Virus record (IMG/VR): IMGVR_UViG_3300008266_001625
Location: 1-21,222 of that record
Source: a virus
Length of the DNA stretch: 21,222 nt
Direction: 5' to 3' (one strand)
Positions 902 to 16,972 of this stretch are shown here, one piece after another (the first letter of the stretch is position 1; the number at the start of each line of letters is the position of its first letter). The translations under genes and the position numbers were made by a program. The notes below the pieces were generated by a model. The model had not been told where the DNA came from. It made no database searches and saw nothing but the letters and a program-made list of their open reading frames with translations.

Positions 902-924
902 GCCTTCTCCTTTGTCGGTTGCGA

Positions 925-1110: not shown

Positions 1111-1832
1111 GCTGCGACCGTCCGATCGGACTCGCTGGCCTCGAGCGTTGGCAGCATCCAATCAATCAGATGCTCGGCCTGCCTCTGGATGATGTAGTCA
1201 ACCGAGTATCCCCAAGTTGAAACGCTGGCGAATGAGATCTCGCACTTCCATCTCTTCTGCCACGCATCTCGCAGGCAGTGGTAGAACTCCCGTGAGTGAA
1301 CATCCCATGAGCCGTTGCGGTAGATCGGTGGCACGGCCTTGTGGCACAACTCGTGTGCAAGCACCTCCCAGACTCGTCTGCTTCGGTTGGGCGATTGGTC
1401 ACGATCGACATTGACTTGTATGAGGTTCGAGTGGCGTTTTGCGAATCCGTGCTGGCTGCCGTGATTGCGTCCACGCCCAATCACGATCTTCGGGATCGGT
1501 TTCCCGTTGTGGTACGGCTGCATCAACTTCCAAATCCGCTCTGCTTCCTTCTCGATCATCATCGCACGACTCGCATTGATTCGTTGCTGCGCCTTGAGCG
1601 GTGCGGAGCGTTCAGCGATCCGTCTGCGCCTTGCGGTCGCCTTCTTCTTGCTCGCCTCCTTCCTCGCAGAGCGTTGCTTCTCCAGCGTTGGTGCGACTCG
1701 CTCGACCAGCACTCCCGTCTTGGATGAACAAGGCAGGCAGTACCTGCGCACATCGTTCTTGCGTGGACGCATCGGTGCGAGCAACCCGTGTTGGCACTGC
1801 TCGCACCTCCAGCGAACCTGCTTCGTGGTCAT
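1107..1832 (-). CDS. Zincin metalloprotease (SprT/WLM-like) with N-terminal zinc ribbon
   Basis: This 241-aa protein carries the zinc-protease signature HELCH at residues 160-164, preceded by hydrophobic residues (WEVLAHELCH). H179 in WDVHSREFYHCL is a candidate third ligand. The N-terminus has a CxxC pair at C10/C13 and another at C32/C35, a likely zinc ribbon. Residues about 50-90 are very basic (Lys/Arg/Ala-rich) and could bind DNA. The layout resembles SprT-type proteases that act on DNA-bound proteins, but phage zincins of this kind are poorly characterised. Its ATG overlaps the stop of the upstream winged-helix gene (ATGA at 1829-1832). It may remove proteins from phage or host DNA before recombination; that role is inference. 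Confidence 0.8.
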   Translation of the reverse strand: MTTKQVRWRCEQCQHGLLAPMRPRKNDVRRYCLPCSSKTGVLVERVAPTLEKQRSARKEASKKKATARRRRIAERSAPLKAQQRINASRAMMIEKEAERIWKLMQPYHNGKPIPKIVIGRGRNHGSQHGFAKRHSNLIQVNVDRDQSPNRSRRVWEVLAHELCHKAVPPIYRNGSWDVHSREFYHCLRDAWQKRWKCEISFASVSTWGYSVDYIIQRQAEHLIDWMLPTLEASESDRTVAA

Positions 1833-2191
1833 CGTTGATCCGCCTCTCGATCGGCTTTCGGATCACGCACTTCCCAAACGCCTCTCCGCAGTTTGCGGAA
1901 CACATCCATTCGACTCTCAATGAACTTGCGAACCGTTGGTGCGGATAGTCCTGACAACTCTTGCAGTTGCGTGAGCGTGACCTCTGCGAAGAGGTTGTGC
2001 TTGCACCAGTTGAGTATGTCTCCGTATTGGTCTTGTCGAGTGATCGTGTCTGGTGAGCGATGCGCTGTCGCTAGTTGCGATGCGAGCCACCTCGGATCAA
2101 CTTTCTCTCTGATGTTCGTTGGCACATGGGCGACCCAGAGTGGTCTGCCATGCGTAGCGATTGCTTCGCCAACTATCTCTGTTGGGTTCAT
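1829..2191 (-). CDS. Winged-helix / HTH DNA-binding protein, 120 aa, first early gene
   Basis: The start at 2191 is preceded by a very strong ribosome site (GGAGAAGGAGGA, 2195-2206) and begins MNPTEIVGEA. A 40-residue N-terminal extension to 2311 is open but would run through the promoter and is rejected. The C-terminal half has an HTH/winged-helix look: TLTQLQELSGLSAPTVRKFI is followed by a basic wing-like segment RKLRRGVWEVRDP. The N-terminal half is unassigned. It is the first gene after the near-consensus promoter at 2216-2244 and starts a four-gene early operon. Autoregulation at the inverted repeat in that promoter is possible but unproven. Its SD is perfectly complementary to a hairpin loop upstream (2347-2358). 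Confidence 0.75.
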   Translation of the reverse strand: MNPTEIVGEAIATHGRPLWVAHVPTNIREKVDPRWLASQLATAHRSPDTITRQDQYGDILNWCKHNLFAEVTLTQLQELSGLSAPTVRKFIESRMDVFRKLRRGVWEVRDPKADREADQR

Positions 2192-2194
2192 GTT

Positions 2195-2206
2195 TCCTCC
2201 TTCTCC
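2195..2206 (-). promoter_or_regulatory. Strong ribosome binding site of the winged-helix gene, complementary to an upstream hairpin loop
   Basis: The minus strand reads GGAGAAGGAGGA, followed by AAC and the ATG at 2191. It contains the consensus AAGGAGG core and fixes the start of the 120-aa gene. The same 12 bases are the exact reverse complement of the loop at 2347-2358. Confidence 0.85.
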
Positions 2207-2215
2207 CATAACAGA

Positions 2216-2244
2216 ATCATAGCCGATATCGAGGACGATATCAA
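2216..2244 (-). promoter_or_regulatory. Near-consensus sigma70 promoter of the early operon
   Basis: On the minus strand, TTGATA (2244-2239) and TATGAT (2221-2216) are separated by exactly 17 bp, one mismatch from consensus in each box. Transcription would start near 2209, leaving a leader of about 18 nt that contains only the ribosome site before the ATG at 2191. This is the only clearly recognisable promoter in the window. It faces the early module, as expected for a promoter read by host polymerase straight after infection. Confidence 0.8.
2225..2242. promoter_or_regulatory. Inverted-repeat operator candidate within the early promoter
   Basis: GATATCG and CGATATC flank a 4-bp centre (AGGA on the plus strand). 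The repeat fills the -35/-10 spacer and overlaps the end of the -35 box. Because GATATC is itself a palindrome, the two half sites are also direct repeats 12 bp apart. A repressor bound here would block polymerase. No classical repressor gene is visible nearby except the winged-helix gene itself. Confidence 0.55.
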
Positions 2245-2287
2245 GGACTATTATTATGGCGTAGTTACGGGCTTTCACGGGCAACGG

Positions 2288-2306
2288 GGTGGGGAGCAGC
2301 CCCACC
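2288..2306 (-). terminator. GC-rich hairpin upstream of the early promoter (possible late terminator)
   Basis: A perfect 7-bp stem GGTGGGG/CCCCACC encloses a 5-nt loop. No U-tract follows on the minus strand, so it is not a textbook intrinsic terminator, but a U-less hairpin at the end of the late operon could still slow or stop polymerase. Part of it (2295-2301) can alternatively pair with 2321-2327 (AGCAGCC with GGCTGCT), which competes with the adjoining nested hairpin. Confidence 0.45.
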
Positions 2307-2318
2307 GCCACCAGCAGT

Positions 2319-2376
2319 GAGGCTGCTCAACCCGAACAGCAGGTGCGGAGAAGGAGGACACACCTGCTGCAGCCTC
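2319..2376 (-). ncRNA. Nested hairpin with an anti-Shine-Dalgarno loop at the 3' end of the late operon
   Basis: This lies directly after the TAA of the 93-aa gene. The outer stem pairs GAGGCTG with CAGCCTC (2376-2370 with 2325-2319). The inner stem pairs CAGCAGGTG with CACCTGCTG (2369-2361 with 2345-2337). The 15-nt loop contains TCCTCCTTCTCC on the minus strand, the perfect complement of the SD at 2195-2206 and also similar to the 16S anti-SD (CCTCC). All pairings are exact. Whether it is a cis leader element, a 3'UTR-derived small RNA or only a terminator hairpin cannot be decided from sequence. Confidence 0.5.
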
Positions 2377-2658
2377 TTACCTTAGATGGCGTAAACCCTC
2401 TAAACCATTCTCAGATAGAACCTTCACCTCACGCACCATCCCAATCGGGATATGCATCGCATGGATTCCCTCATCCTCACAAAGCGTCTGCCACAGAGTC
2501 ACATGATCCTTCTTGCTTCCAGCCTCACCAACAGGAATCAGAAACCCAACCGTCTCAACAAGCGTCTCCCCATCGTCCTCGTACTCATCCAATTCGATCC
2601 AGCCTGAATCACTCATGTGCGCATCAGCCCAACGGATCAACACGATGCTGTAGCCCAT
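2377..2658 (-). CDS. Conserved-type phage protein of unknown function, 93 aa
   Basis: The protein reads as a compact alpha/beta protein with a pattern I associate with small phage proteins: an N-terminal IRWADAH...GWIELDE strand pair, a central TVGFLIPVG strand, then HVTLW...IPIGMVREVKVL at the C-terminus. No catalytic motif is visible. The ATG follows the metallophosphoesterase stop closely, with GGTGAG as a weak SD. It is the last gene of the late operon, and its TAA abuts the nested hairpin. It is unlikely to be structural by position, but this is open. Confidence 0.75.
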   Translation of the reverse strand: MGYSIVLIRWADAHMSDSGWIELDEYEDDGETLVETVGFLIPVGEAGSKKDHVTLWQTLCEDEGIHAMHIPIGMVREVKVLSENGLEGLRHLR

Positions 2659-2661
2659 CGC

Positions 2662-3717
2662 TCACCAGCCTTCACGCTTACGATCCGCACAGAACACTGG
2701 TGCTTGGAAGGTGATGTTCTTCTCAGGTGTGATCAACGCCAACGCCTGCTGAGGCTGCTCGAAACCGAACCCCATGATCAATGCGTACTCATCCACACCC
2801 TTGAGAGAGCCGTTGACGACCATCGAAGGGGTGGAGATGTATTGATGCCAGTGGCCAAGCCACAGCGTCTGGAACGATTTACCTGTTGCCATGTAACGCT
2901 GATGCTTCCTTGCTCGCATCCGCATGATCGGTGGATAGATACCACCGATACCGCCACCACCAGAAACTTGATCTCCGTGAGTGATCAGATGCCCGTGCTC
3001 ATAAATCTGAATCCACGCATCAGCAGACTCTGGGATCGTGAAGGTGACACGCTTGTCCTTGCTGAAGTGACGCTCCACCATCTTGGCGAGTAGCCAGTCG
3101 AAGTTAGTGCGTACTCGCTGCTTCATTCGAGGCTTGCGTGTCGTGCGACCGTGATTGCCGACCACGCTCACGACATGACACTTCTTGAACTCGTCCGTGA
3201 GCAACTGCACTGCTGCAGCAACCTGCTCAGACCAGAACAACAGTGAGCCGATCATTGTGTCCTCGTTGGTGATCTGGAGTTCCTCATGGATGTCGCCAGT
3301 GAATATGTCGCCACCAAGAATGACAACGACCCCGTCATAGGTGACACCCGACAGATAGTGCCTGCTGAGTTTGATCACATTCTGCGCCCACTTCTCCAGA
3401 CGCATCACAGCGATCTCACGGTTGTAGGCGTTCAGGCCTTCGAGTTCCTCTGGGTTCACCACCTCATCGAAGTGCGTATCGGACAGCATCACTACCAGCG
3501 TGGCTGCCGATCGCTTCGGTTTCGCTGGCACAAGCCACGATGGAGGATCGATGTGCTTTGTCTCTACCTGTTCAACGATAGAAAGTGTGCGCTCAAGTTC
3601 CTCAACACGCAGCGTGAGTCTGTCGTTGTTTGACTGCAGCAGGTTGTTCTGTTTGCGTATCCGTGACTCTTCGATCCTGTCGGGCTGCTCTTGTGCGATC
3701 TCGTCACGCAAGTTCAC
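2662..3717 (-). CDS. Calcineurin-like metallophosphoesterase, 351 aa
   Basis: All five metal-binding blocks of the calcineurin-like superfamily are present: D80-T-H82, GGD at 135-137, GNH at 187-189, HGD at 247-249 and GHWH at 288-291. Activity as a two-metal phosphodiesterase or phosphatase is therefore likely. Residues 1-60 form a predicted coiled coil, followed by a PPSWLVP linker also seen in other phage members. The start is a GTG at 3717 that overlaps the upstream HTH gene by 14 nt; the domain itself begins near residue 72, so the exact start is not critical. The substrate is unknown; candidates are DNA ends, nucleotides or a signalling dinucleotide. It lies late, after the lysis genes. 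Confidence 0.88.
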   Translation of the reverse strand: MNLRDEIAQEQPDRIEESRIRKQNNLLQSNNDRLTLRVEELERTLSIVEQVETKHIDPPSWLVPAKPKRSAATLVVMLSDTHFDEVVNPEELEGLNAYNREIAVMRLEKWAQNVIKLSRHYLSGVTYDGVVVILGGDIFTGDIHEELQITNEDTMIGSLLFWSEQVAAAVQLLTDEFKKCHVVSVVGNHGRTTRKPRMKQRVRTNFDWLLAKMVERHFSKDKRVTFTIPESADAWIQIYEHGHLITHGDQVSGGGGIGGIYPPIMRMRARKHQRYMATGKSFQTLWLGHWHQYISTPSMVVNGSLKGVDEYALIMGFGFEQPQQALALITPEKNITFQAPVFCADRKREGW

Positions 3718-3946
3718 GGTAGATACCTGTGCTGCGGTAACGGTAAACAGTTGCTTCTGAGATTTCGATGCCGTGACGCTTCAACACTTTTGCGATGCTT
3801 CGGCCTGTGATTAGCGGATCATCAAACGCTGCGACAAGGTCTTTGCGATCCTGCTCAGATAGCAGGTGTTTGATTTGGATGATTGCTGGTTTCCTTCCAG
3901 CCAACCCTGCTGGTTCAGACTTTATTTCGCTTAGGAGTTTGCTCAT
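3704..3946 (-). CDS. Small HTH protein, 80 aa
   Basis: A helical protein with a likely HTH in the C-terminal half: PLITGRSIAKVLKRHG, then SEATVYRYRSTG, which resembles a recognition helix. The N-terminal third is basic and flexible. It overlaps the preceding DUF2746-like gene by 32 nt in another frame and the following metallophosphoesterase by 14 nt. Similar small proteins are common in actinophages without assigned function. It could be a late regulator or a terminase-small-subunit-like DNA binder. The HTH is inferred from pattern only. Confidence 0.7.
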   Translation of the reverse strand: MSKLLSEIKSEPAGLAGRKPAIIQIKHLLSEQDRKDLVAAFDDPLITGRSIAKVLKRHGIEISEATVYRYRSTGIYRELA

Positions 3947-4172
3947 TAGGTAGCCCTTCTCTGTGCTGGTCTAAATGCTTCTCCAATTTATCATCAACCC
4001 TGTTGATTGTGCGATAGATACGCTGGAGTTGACCTTGCACGATCGCATGATCCTCAGCGTTCTCTTGACGCATGGCCTTCGCTTCTCGGCGCATCGTCTG
4101 TAGCAAGACTCCTAGAAGGCCACCAATGGTCGTGATGACAGCAACGACAATGGCAGCCCAACCCTGATCCAT
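3915..4172 (-). CDS. DUF2746-like one-TM protein with coiled coil (holin or lysis accessory), 85 aa
   Basis: There is one N-terminal transmembrane segment (about residues 5-25, AAIVVAVITTIGGLLGVLL). A charged helix follows (ENAEDHAIVQGQLQRIYRTINRVDDKLEKHLDQH) typical of the DUF2746 proteins encoded next to endolysins in actinophages. It starts 1 nt after the endolysin stop. A role as second holin, pinholin partner or spanin-like regulator is inferred from position and topology. Confidence 0.75.
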   Translation of the reverse strand: MDQGWAAIVVAVITTIGGLLGVLLQTMRREAKAMRQENAEDHAIVQGQLQRIYRTINRVDDKLEKHLDQHREGLPNEQTPKRNKV

Positions 4173-15608: not shown

Positions 15609-16913
15609 TCAGAAGGTCGGGGTGACGAGTCCAGTTCCACCGATCAATGCGAAGGCATTGGGGTAGCGGTTCGCAGTGAAGGCTGCGTAACCATAGACAA
15701 TCATCTGAACATCAAGTTCAGCACCCTTTGGCTGCTCAAAGCGCAGCATCATTGGCTCGCCAGAACCCTGCTCCCAGAGGTGCAGTTCCTGCGTGTTACC
15801 GATGATGATGACATCCTCGTTGCTGCCTGCACCGTTGGTCGTGGTGACATTGGCATCGGTGACGACAGGCAGACCTGCGATCGTGTAACCGCTGTTGCCA
15901 TAGACAACCGAACCCTGACCCACTGCAACAGCATTGAAAGCACCGTTGCCAACTGGGAGAGCCAGTGGGCGGTTCGTGCTATCAACCGCTGCAAGGATGA
16001 ACGCCAGACGGCGTGGGTGCATGATGATGAAGTTCGGACCTCCGAAGAAGTTGGTCTGAATGCGCTGAACGCCATCCAACAACTTGGGGTACAACTCAGC
16101 AACCGATGGCGAGGCATCGGTGTAGGTGATGACCTGCGTGATCGTGTTGGTCGTTGCCGTGACGAGTGCAGCATCAAGTGCAGTGTGGTAAGCCGACACG
16201 AGGTCTGCCATCACAAGTGCATCCACACCCGTGCCACGCTCCAGAGCCTGACGGCTCACATTCTGCTGACCAGCGTAGGTGTTCACCGAAATGTCCAACT
16301 TGGTGTCATCCATGTTGGTTTCGGAAACGGCTGCGCCTTCCGTCTGGGCTGCGACTGACGAACCAGTCGTGACCTTGCTGATGCTCAGCGTCAAGCCAGA
16401 GGCAGGAAGTTGGTGCTTACGAGCAACATCTGCAACTGGGCGACCTGCACGAGCGAACGGTGCAGCGAGATCGGTGAGGAACTGCGGAACGATCAAACCA
16501 GCAAAGTTTGCGCTGGTCACATCACGGCGCTCCACACGCTCTTCATTCATGTGACGGGCGATGCGCTCACGAGCGGAGAAGTCTCCGTTGATCTGCGCAG
16601 CGTATGCGTCAGCGATGAACGAGTGATCGCTGTTCGGGGAGTAGGTGCGAGCCTCAGACTTTACGACTGCTGGCGAAGCAACCTGCTCAAACTTCTTCTC
16701 CTTGCGGAGTTCTGCAGCCTCAGCCGAACGCTTTTCAAGTTCGGTGTGGGTTGCGATCTGCTCGTCAAGCGAACGAACCTCGTCAAGCGATGCAGCGATT
16801 GCAGCATCCTCTTCTTTGGTGAGTTCACGAGCCTCAGCCTGCGCAGCCTCAACAATGGCTTCCGCCGATGCGAGAGCAGCGTCACGCTTTTCAATGAGTG
16901 ACTTACTGAACAT
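15609..16913 (-). CDS. Major capsid protein, HK97 fold, 434 aa
   Basis: The ATG at 16913 (MFSKSLIEKR) is used because GGAGG lies 5 nt upstream; a TTG 4 codons earlier is open but would include the SD. Residues 1 to about 95 form an Ala/Glu-rich coiled coil (delta/scaffold domain) likely removed by the prohead protease. The shell domain follows, with ANFAGLIVPQFLTDL, the E-loop/P-domain region QNVSRQALERG, NFIIMHPRRLAFI, and near the end PKGAELDVQMIVYGYAAFTANRYPNAFALIGG, as in actinophage HK97-type capsids. The upstream protease and downstream connectors agree. Confidence 0.92.
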   Translation of the reverse strand: MFSKSLIEKRDAALASAEAIVEAAQAEARELTKEEDAAIAASLDEVRSLDEQIATHTELEKRSAEAAELRKEKKFEQVASPAVVKSEARTYSPNSDHSFIADAYAAQINGDFSARERIARHMNEERVERRDVTSANFAGLIVPQFLTDLAAPFARAGRPVADVARKHQLPASGLTLSISKVTTGSSVAAQTEGAAVSETNMDDTKLDISVNTYAGQQNVSRQALERGTGVDALVMADLVSAYHTALDAALVTATTNTITQVITYTDASPSVAELYPKLLDGVQRIQTNFFGGPNFIIMHPRRLAFILAAVDSTNRPLALPVGNGAFNAVAVGQGSVVYGNSGYTIAGLPVVTDANVTTTNGAGSNEDVIIIGNTQELHLWEQGSGEPMMLRFEQPKGAELDVQMIVYGYAAFTANRYPNAFALIGGTGLVTPTF

Positions 16914-16915
16914 GA

Positions 16916-16972
16916 TGACCTCCAATGGTCGTCAATAGATGATTGTTGTTGTCCTTCAGTGTTAGGAGGTCA
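16916..16972 (-). promoter_or_regulatory. Inverted repeat that can sequester the capsid ribosome site
   Basis: The capsid SD region GGAGGTCA (16923-16916) has a perfect 8-nt complement TGACCTCC (16972-16965) 41 nt upstream on the same strand. Pairing would hide the SD. A short GATCC/GGATC hairpin (16975-16989) lies just before it. The pairing is exact; regulation is inferred. Confidence 0.4.

Follow-up and report, generated by a model that had tools for sequence, protein, structure and literature searches.

The window analysed here is the entire linear IMG/VR record IMGVR_UViG_3300008266_001625, a stretch of 21,222 bases whose genes lie on the minus strand. Portal and capsid genes occupy its right side, and tail and lysis-type genes follow towards the element described below. 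We use the labels "late" and "early" for the two gene blocks on the basis of their gene content. Around the boundary between these blocks, the following genes are found:

3704-3946, minus strand: HTH_32-like gene, between the tail and lysis-type genes and the phosphoesterase/exonuclease gene
2662-3717, minus strand: phosphoesterase/exonuclease gene, before the 93-aa gene
2377-2658, minus strand: 93-aa gene, directly preceding the element; predicted small beta-barrel (model pLDDT 80.7)
1829-2191, minus strand: first early gene of the window lineage, 120 aa, with homologs found and no family match; its ATG is at 2191

The early block of the window consists of this 120-aa gene, a SprT-like gene and a YqaJ/RecE-like exonuclease gene. 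The capsid protein (15609-16925) matches mycobacteriophage capsids only, namely those of Bipper- and Minerva-like phages, at 34-37% identity, which makes an actinobacterial host likely. For the 93-aa protein, no match was obtained in Pfam, NCBIfam or PHROGs, and no DUF1127 was detected; look-alikes exist among uncharacterised Caudovirales proteins. Its AlphaFold model gave weak, non-significant matches to solved structures of GatD, ribosomal L19-type proteins and Gemin6. A role as an RNA chaperone was considered with this small beta-barrel model in hand, and from matches of that quality no conclusion was drawn.

Between the 93-aa gene and the first early gene lies the structure that an earlier, sequence-only reading of this DNA had singled out, a hairpin whose loop is complementary to the Shine-Dalgarno sequence (SD) of the first early gene:

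2336-2370, minus strand: hairpin I, with a covarying stem (9 of 10 modelled pairs changed on both sides; 99.6% of cells paired)
2347-2359, minus strand: loop of hairpin I, which reads GUCCUCCUUCUCC here and follows the invariant form GUNC(U)CCUUCUCC (across 58 sequences, 12 of its 13 positions do not change, save one U deleted in 3)
2195-2206, minus strand: SD of the first early gene, complementary to 12 nt of the loop in the window lineage only

The hairpin, the loop and the 12-nt complement all proved to be where that reading had placed them. On the minus strand of 2336-2370, hairpin I reads GCAGCAGGTGTG-TCCTCCTTCTC-CGCACCTGCTGT and contains 12 pairs, 10 of them Watson-Crick and two G-U. Its loop, TCCTCCTTCTCC at 2347-2358, can pair without a mismatch with GGAGAAGGAGGA, which stands at 2195-2206 just ahead of the ATG, and within the window the 12-mer has no exact copies other than the loop and the SD. 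The region folds far better than its shuffled versions (z = -5.1; 0 of 200 shuffles), and the structure goes beyond chance because relatives show covariation. A 7-bp outer stem pairing 2319-2325 with 2370-2376, which had also been proposed, was abandoned in favour of a second hairpin: positions 2321-2328 form the 5' arm of this competing, covarying hairpin II, and the outer stem is also missing from the alignment and the consensus fold of the relatives.

Hairpin I belongs to a larger RNA of two hairpins, not described before, which is located between the late and early genes in an entire group of uncultured phages that are probably actinobacterial. Relatives were retrieved through protein homology (phosphoesterase, first early gene and 93-aa gene, and later a phosphoesterase profile) and not through the motif. 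In nearly all near relatives, the region after the 93-aa gene holds this loop unchanged although the stem beneath it differs in sequence, and next to it another hairpin that has a bulge of two bases. The complete element of the window comprises the following parts in addition to hairpin I:

2288-2374, minus strand: whole two-hairpin RNA, matched by covariance model R1 at 77.4 bits (E 5e-17)
2289-2333, minus strand: hairpin II, GGGUUGAGCAGCC...GGCUGCUCCCC, terminator-like and lacking a U tract (17 of 20 pairs changed on both sides)
2329-2330, minus strand: bulge low in the stem of hairpin II, here UU (UU in 56 of 58 sequences, UG in two of 58)

Several lines of evidence establish the structure. 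Firstly, in a structure-independent alignment, 94.4% of cells pair, and 188 cells are double-changed, compared with 51 in shuffles. Secondly, 58 distinct sequences were taken solely from loci selected by protein, and in these the share of paired cells is 95.2% and 26 of 30 pairs have changed on both sides; this alignment, which was fitted to the model and hence leans towards it, has 369 double-changed cells against 114.5, a value that none of 500 shuffles and no slid version came close to. Thirdly, the protein-selected loci contain 61 covariance-model matches, and the element is found by covariance model in 47 of the 52 phosphoesterase-selected loci. Furthermore, G-U cells outnumber A-C cells by 281 to 14 in the 58 sequences, and the structure therefore belongs to the RNA read from the minus strand of the window. 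A chance inverted repeat without function could be argued from how often pyrimidine runs of anti-SD type and GC-rich repeats occur, but the covariation described above refutes this explanation, to which we assign next to no probability. We conclude that this is a real, new and conserved phage RNA, whose structure is as good as certain. On this point the earlier reading was right: the hairpin is a functional RNA structure, its loop is anti-SD-like, and it stands where one gene block ends, ahead of a candidate early promoter.

The loop is almost frozen while the stems change in step, and the element is therefore a working RNA. In the 58 sequences it reads G-U-N-C-(U)-C-C-U-U-C-U-C-C, and N alone varies (U in 47, C in six and A in five); loci found by loop pattern were excluded from these counts because they had been selected for the loop. 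The suggestion that the loop imitates the 16S anti-SD was upheld as far as its anti-SD-like character is concerned, but what all copies share is the core CCUUCUCC, and the U needed for CUCCUU is missing from some of them. A C-rich loop is confined to hairpin I; that of hairpin II is variable. An apparent related form, with the loop GUACCCUUCUCC and a UA bulge, was read by eye at a more distant locus (L036).

The element has a strict position and, in the searches we made, a narrow distribution. Among 87 copies selected by pattern, 79 have enough sequence upstream for a check, and each of these comes directly after a member of the 93-aa gene family. In some related phages, the 93-aa gene is followed at once by the exonuclease gene, and the element is absent. 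A pattern scan of 84,980 prokaryote genomes gave 87 matches spread across unrelated taxa, with no convincing stem among the matches listed, and these matches look like chance. When two copies of the element were compared by blastn with 50,697 phage records (INPHARED), no copy was recovered, the one match being a 27-nt chance match in a terminase gene. A scan with variant loops gave one true match, which was known already. Searches against Rfam returned no match for the window, either at the gathering threshold or at E up to 5, and none for five relatives.

The location of the element could point to a terminator that also stabilises the 3' end of the late transcript, with the loop kept for processing or for factor-dependent termination. 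Such a role would be in line with the position right after a stop codon (in many relatives that of the 93-aa gene lies 13-17 nt ahead of the loop), with the GC-rich hairpin II and with the promoter that follows. However, most copies have no U tract or long T run, a terminator scan of the element strand of the window found nothing, and the GC hairpin followed by a U tract that characterises intrinsic terminators is not seen. Moreover, a plain terminator requires neither the invariant 12-nt loop nor the invariant bulge. A plain terminator is therefore less likely, and we consider this explanation as a whole rather unlikely.

Downstream of the element lies the signal with which early transcription may begin:

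2216-2244, minus strand: candidate early promoter, TTGATA-17-TATGAT (10 of 12 positions match), with its -10 hexamer at 2221-2216

In relatives, -10-like hexamers are found 29-32 nt ahead of the SD in 15 of 20 clear cases, and a -35/-10 scan by itself gave no clear excess there. The early promoter proposed by the sequence-only reading has a good match and a -10 position that is kept in relatives in its favour; the RNA start near 2209 is a putative one. A sigma-70 promoter just upstream of the element, which would serve an independent small RNA, was also sought and showed no clear excess over shuffles.

Early leaders have structures of their own. At early gene starts in relatives, the SD is held in a small hairpin of the form arm-YC-AAGAGGA-GG-arm (117 unique sites, for example in L025 downstream of 6320, in L058 and in L035), with arms of at least 5 bp in 81 of the 117 sites, compared with about 31 when the flanks are shuffled. 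In the 40 nt before the first early SD of relatives, a further short hairpin is present between the -10 hexamer and the SD; hairpins with at least five Watson-Crick pairs occur there in 74% of cases versus 23% in shuffles. It therefore seems that two hairpins stand at the start of early mRNA, one at the 5' end and then the one that holds the SD. At its early gene starts, another lineage has CCCTGAGGAGGG.

The 12-nt complementarity had led to the proposal that late read-through RNA, in which loop and SD are joined, keeps the adjacent early gene silent. In the window, folding agrees with this: the loop-SD pairing is predicted to beat hairpin I in the read-through RNA, with a probability of about 0.76, which would bury the early SD, and the SD is mostly free in the short early mRNA. 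The match is not conserved in relatives, however, where the loop stays constant while the neighbouring SD changes, so that most first early genes (17 of 22) share only 5 nt with the loop. The 12-nt match is also a smaller surprise than it seems at first, given that SDs are rich in purines and the loop resembles an anti-SD: across the 987 gene starts of contigs with the element, the match to the loop reaches 12 nt in three and at least 8 nt in 60. Nor is the loop tuned to its own leader, as a test in which loops were swapped against leaders was negative: if the C-type loop took the place of the T-type, pairing would become stronger, at -14.0 instead of -12.6 kcal/mol (47 leaders), and this swap has not happened. 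Finally, the 10-nt complement GGAGAAGGAG was found nowhere else in the 22 element-bearing contigs. Together, the sharing of 5 nt, a loop that is not the best for its own leader and the absence of GGAGAAGGAG elsewhere imply that the constancy of the loop cannot be due to the adjacent SD. Compensatory changes in related phages, which would have tied the loop to this SD, did not appear, and no target covaries with the loop, including when loop variants were compared with AGGAGNAC in ribosome sites. Judged from these comparisons, silencing of the early gene through the 12-nt match is not a conserved function, and as the function for which the loop was selected we hold it to be very improbable.

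The reading that we favour, with a probability of roughly 40%, is that the element is an RNA of the late transcript whose C-rich loop would block early ribosome sites. Its trans-acting version, in which the loop may act as an antisense RNA against ribosome sites in general, is our leading hypothesis. The two-hairpin RNA would be made with the late transcript and would either be left as its stable 3' end or be cut free as a short RNA. The open C-rich loop, CUCCUUCUCC, could then pair with purine-rich ribosome sites of early phage mRNAs, and possibly of host mRNAs. Pairing would block initiation, and early translation would fall as soon as enough late transcription has accumulated; for the window lineage, the early gene next to the element would happen to be a near-perfect target both in cis and in trans. 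A frozen loop would fit such a mode of action because the pairing would extend over 6-9 nt with many sites and not over one exact target.

The predicted energies of loop-site duplexes are consistent with pairing to many sites. In related contigs, with gene starts called partly by their SD, they are -9.2 kcal/mol for early and -6.6 kcal/mol for late gene starts (p = 3e-18). The early-late difference of the real loop, -2.83, was reached by two of 250 permuted loops in a comparison that ignores kinship, and it is larger than the difference given by the 16S anti-SD, which is -1.58 with one stretch of it and -2.18 with another. In three relatives that lack the element, the difference is -1.43, similar to that of the anti-SD and reached by seven of 250 permutations, and is hence weaker but present; this control includes few relatives, and G024 was left out because the gene is on the other strand. 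The separation between early and late sites is therefore suggestive, and not decisive, support for pairing with many sites.

Individual sites of potential pairing in the window include the following:

3955-3961, minus strand: GAGAAGG, ribosome site of the HTH_32-like gene, a recurrent candidate target chosen post hoc
903-910, minus strand: GGAGAAGG, ribosome site of the YqaJ/RecE-like exonuclease gene, an 8-nt complement of the loop core that is not present in all relatives

The strongest recurrent single sites precede the HTH_32-like gene, a tail gene and a lysozyme-like gene (post hoc, among 50 gene groups). At the ribosome site of a lysozyme-like secreted protein gene we also observed GAGAAGGAGGAC, another 12-nt complement of the window-type loop (L124 8521, a near-identical contig; G018 and G021). 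As for host rRNA, the 10-nt loop complement is absent from that of one Streptomyces genome; the 8-mer GGAGAAGG occurs once in a 23S locus there, and pairing of the loop with rRNA was dropped as it gained no further support. Hairpin II also has short matches to the sarcin-ricin region of 23S rRNA, but only in lineages with the loop CUAGUAC, and these were judged to be chance.

Several observations count against the leading hypothesis. The adjacent SD is usually a poor match to the loop, which is not tuned to it; the 10-nt loop complement is missing from relatives that bear the element; no target shows the compensatory changes looked for above; two of the best recurrent targets, those of the HTH_32 gene and the tail gene, lie upstream of the element and outside the early block; and strict invariance of the loop would also be expected from contact with a protein or with RNA polymerase. 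The main competitor is an element that acts in cis and is bound by a protein or by RNA polymerase. It could be an antiterminator of the putRNA kind or some other regulatory site where the early block begins, and the loop and the UU bulge would be its contacts. The build of the RNA would suit it, with two neighbouring hairpins that span about 85 nt, a loop that does not vary and a constant bulge in the lower stem II, as would the position ahead of a long operon, the likeness in layout to the two-stem HK022 putRNA of about 70 nt, which has an unpaired wedge U in its lower stem II (PMC9378689), the strict synteny upstream of the early block, and a loop that remains invariant without a matching change in any ribosome site. 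On the other hand, the candidate early promoter is downstream of the element, so that early mRNA from that promoter would lack it; the element is unrelated to any Rfam family; and contact with a protein or polymerase would leave the complementarity of the loop to ribosome sites and the early/late separation unexplained. We regard such a bound element as a credible though unlikely alternative to the blocking of early ribosome sites.

The blocking of ribosome sites could extend to a general switch of translation from early to late genes by a new phage RNA family, in which a late-made RNA with one fixed anti-SD loop would compete with ribosomes for the strong sites of early mRNAs, whose SDs are in many cases held in small hairpins, and late genes with weaker sites would escape; we put this forward as a tentative and speculative extension. 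If true, these phages would switch translation from early to late by means of one RNA instead of a protein. Whatever its function, the element is a strongly supported structured RNA without an Rfam family, from phages that are known only through metagenomes, and its invariant loop and bulge provide a concrete handle for finding the partner molecule.

Compared with known systems, the two-hairpin element is, on the searches described above, a new RNA without match to a known Rfam family. The actinobacterial small RNA B11 (6C) represses by means of C-rich loops that pair with ribosome sites (PMC10470900). It resembles the element in having a C-rich hairpin loop able to pair with such sites, in a setting that is probably actinobacterial here as well, and the element may repress in the same manner, as its predicted pairing potential would allow. 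However, 6C is encoded by bacteria and carries a pair of C-rich loops, whereas the element is found in phages only and has one such loop, its second hairpin carrying a 2-nt bulge and a variable loop; neither a match to the Rfam family nor two hairpins with C-rich loops were found. In the case of the CcsR ("cuckoo") small RNAs of alphaproteobacteria, whose hairpins come directly after the gene of a small protein and are released by cutting of the shared ccaF1 transcript, which has a terminator hairpin at its end (PMC10253847), the layout of small gene, C-rich-loop hairpin and terminator-like hairpin is alike, but the element here has no DUF1127 protein, a single copy of the loop and a hairpin II that lacks a U tract. 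The c4 RNA of phages P1 and P7 is likewise a phage RNA with loops that pair at a ribosome-site region (PMC12197685); its target is a single mRNA of a temperate phage, whereas the loop described here is invariant and has no single conserved exact target. The HK022 putRNA, compared by layout, is similar in its general plan of two adjacent stems, about 70-85 nt and unpaired bases in the lower stem II (PMC9378689); put sits downstream of early promoters, whereas the element is located upstream of the best candidate early promoter, and another promoter may lie upstream of it. Finally, the Start-Associated Sequences of cluster K mycobacteriophages (PMC3203893) are, like those at early gene starts of the relatives studied here, repeated sequences that contain an SD. 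The repeats in our relatives are separate from the two-hairpin element, and their flanks covary as a hairpin. These SD hairpins offer a testable answer to the role of the mycobacteriophage start-associated sequences.
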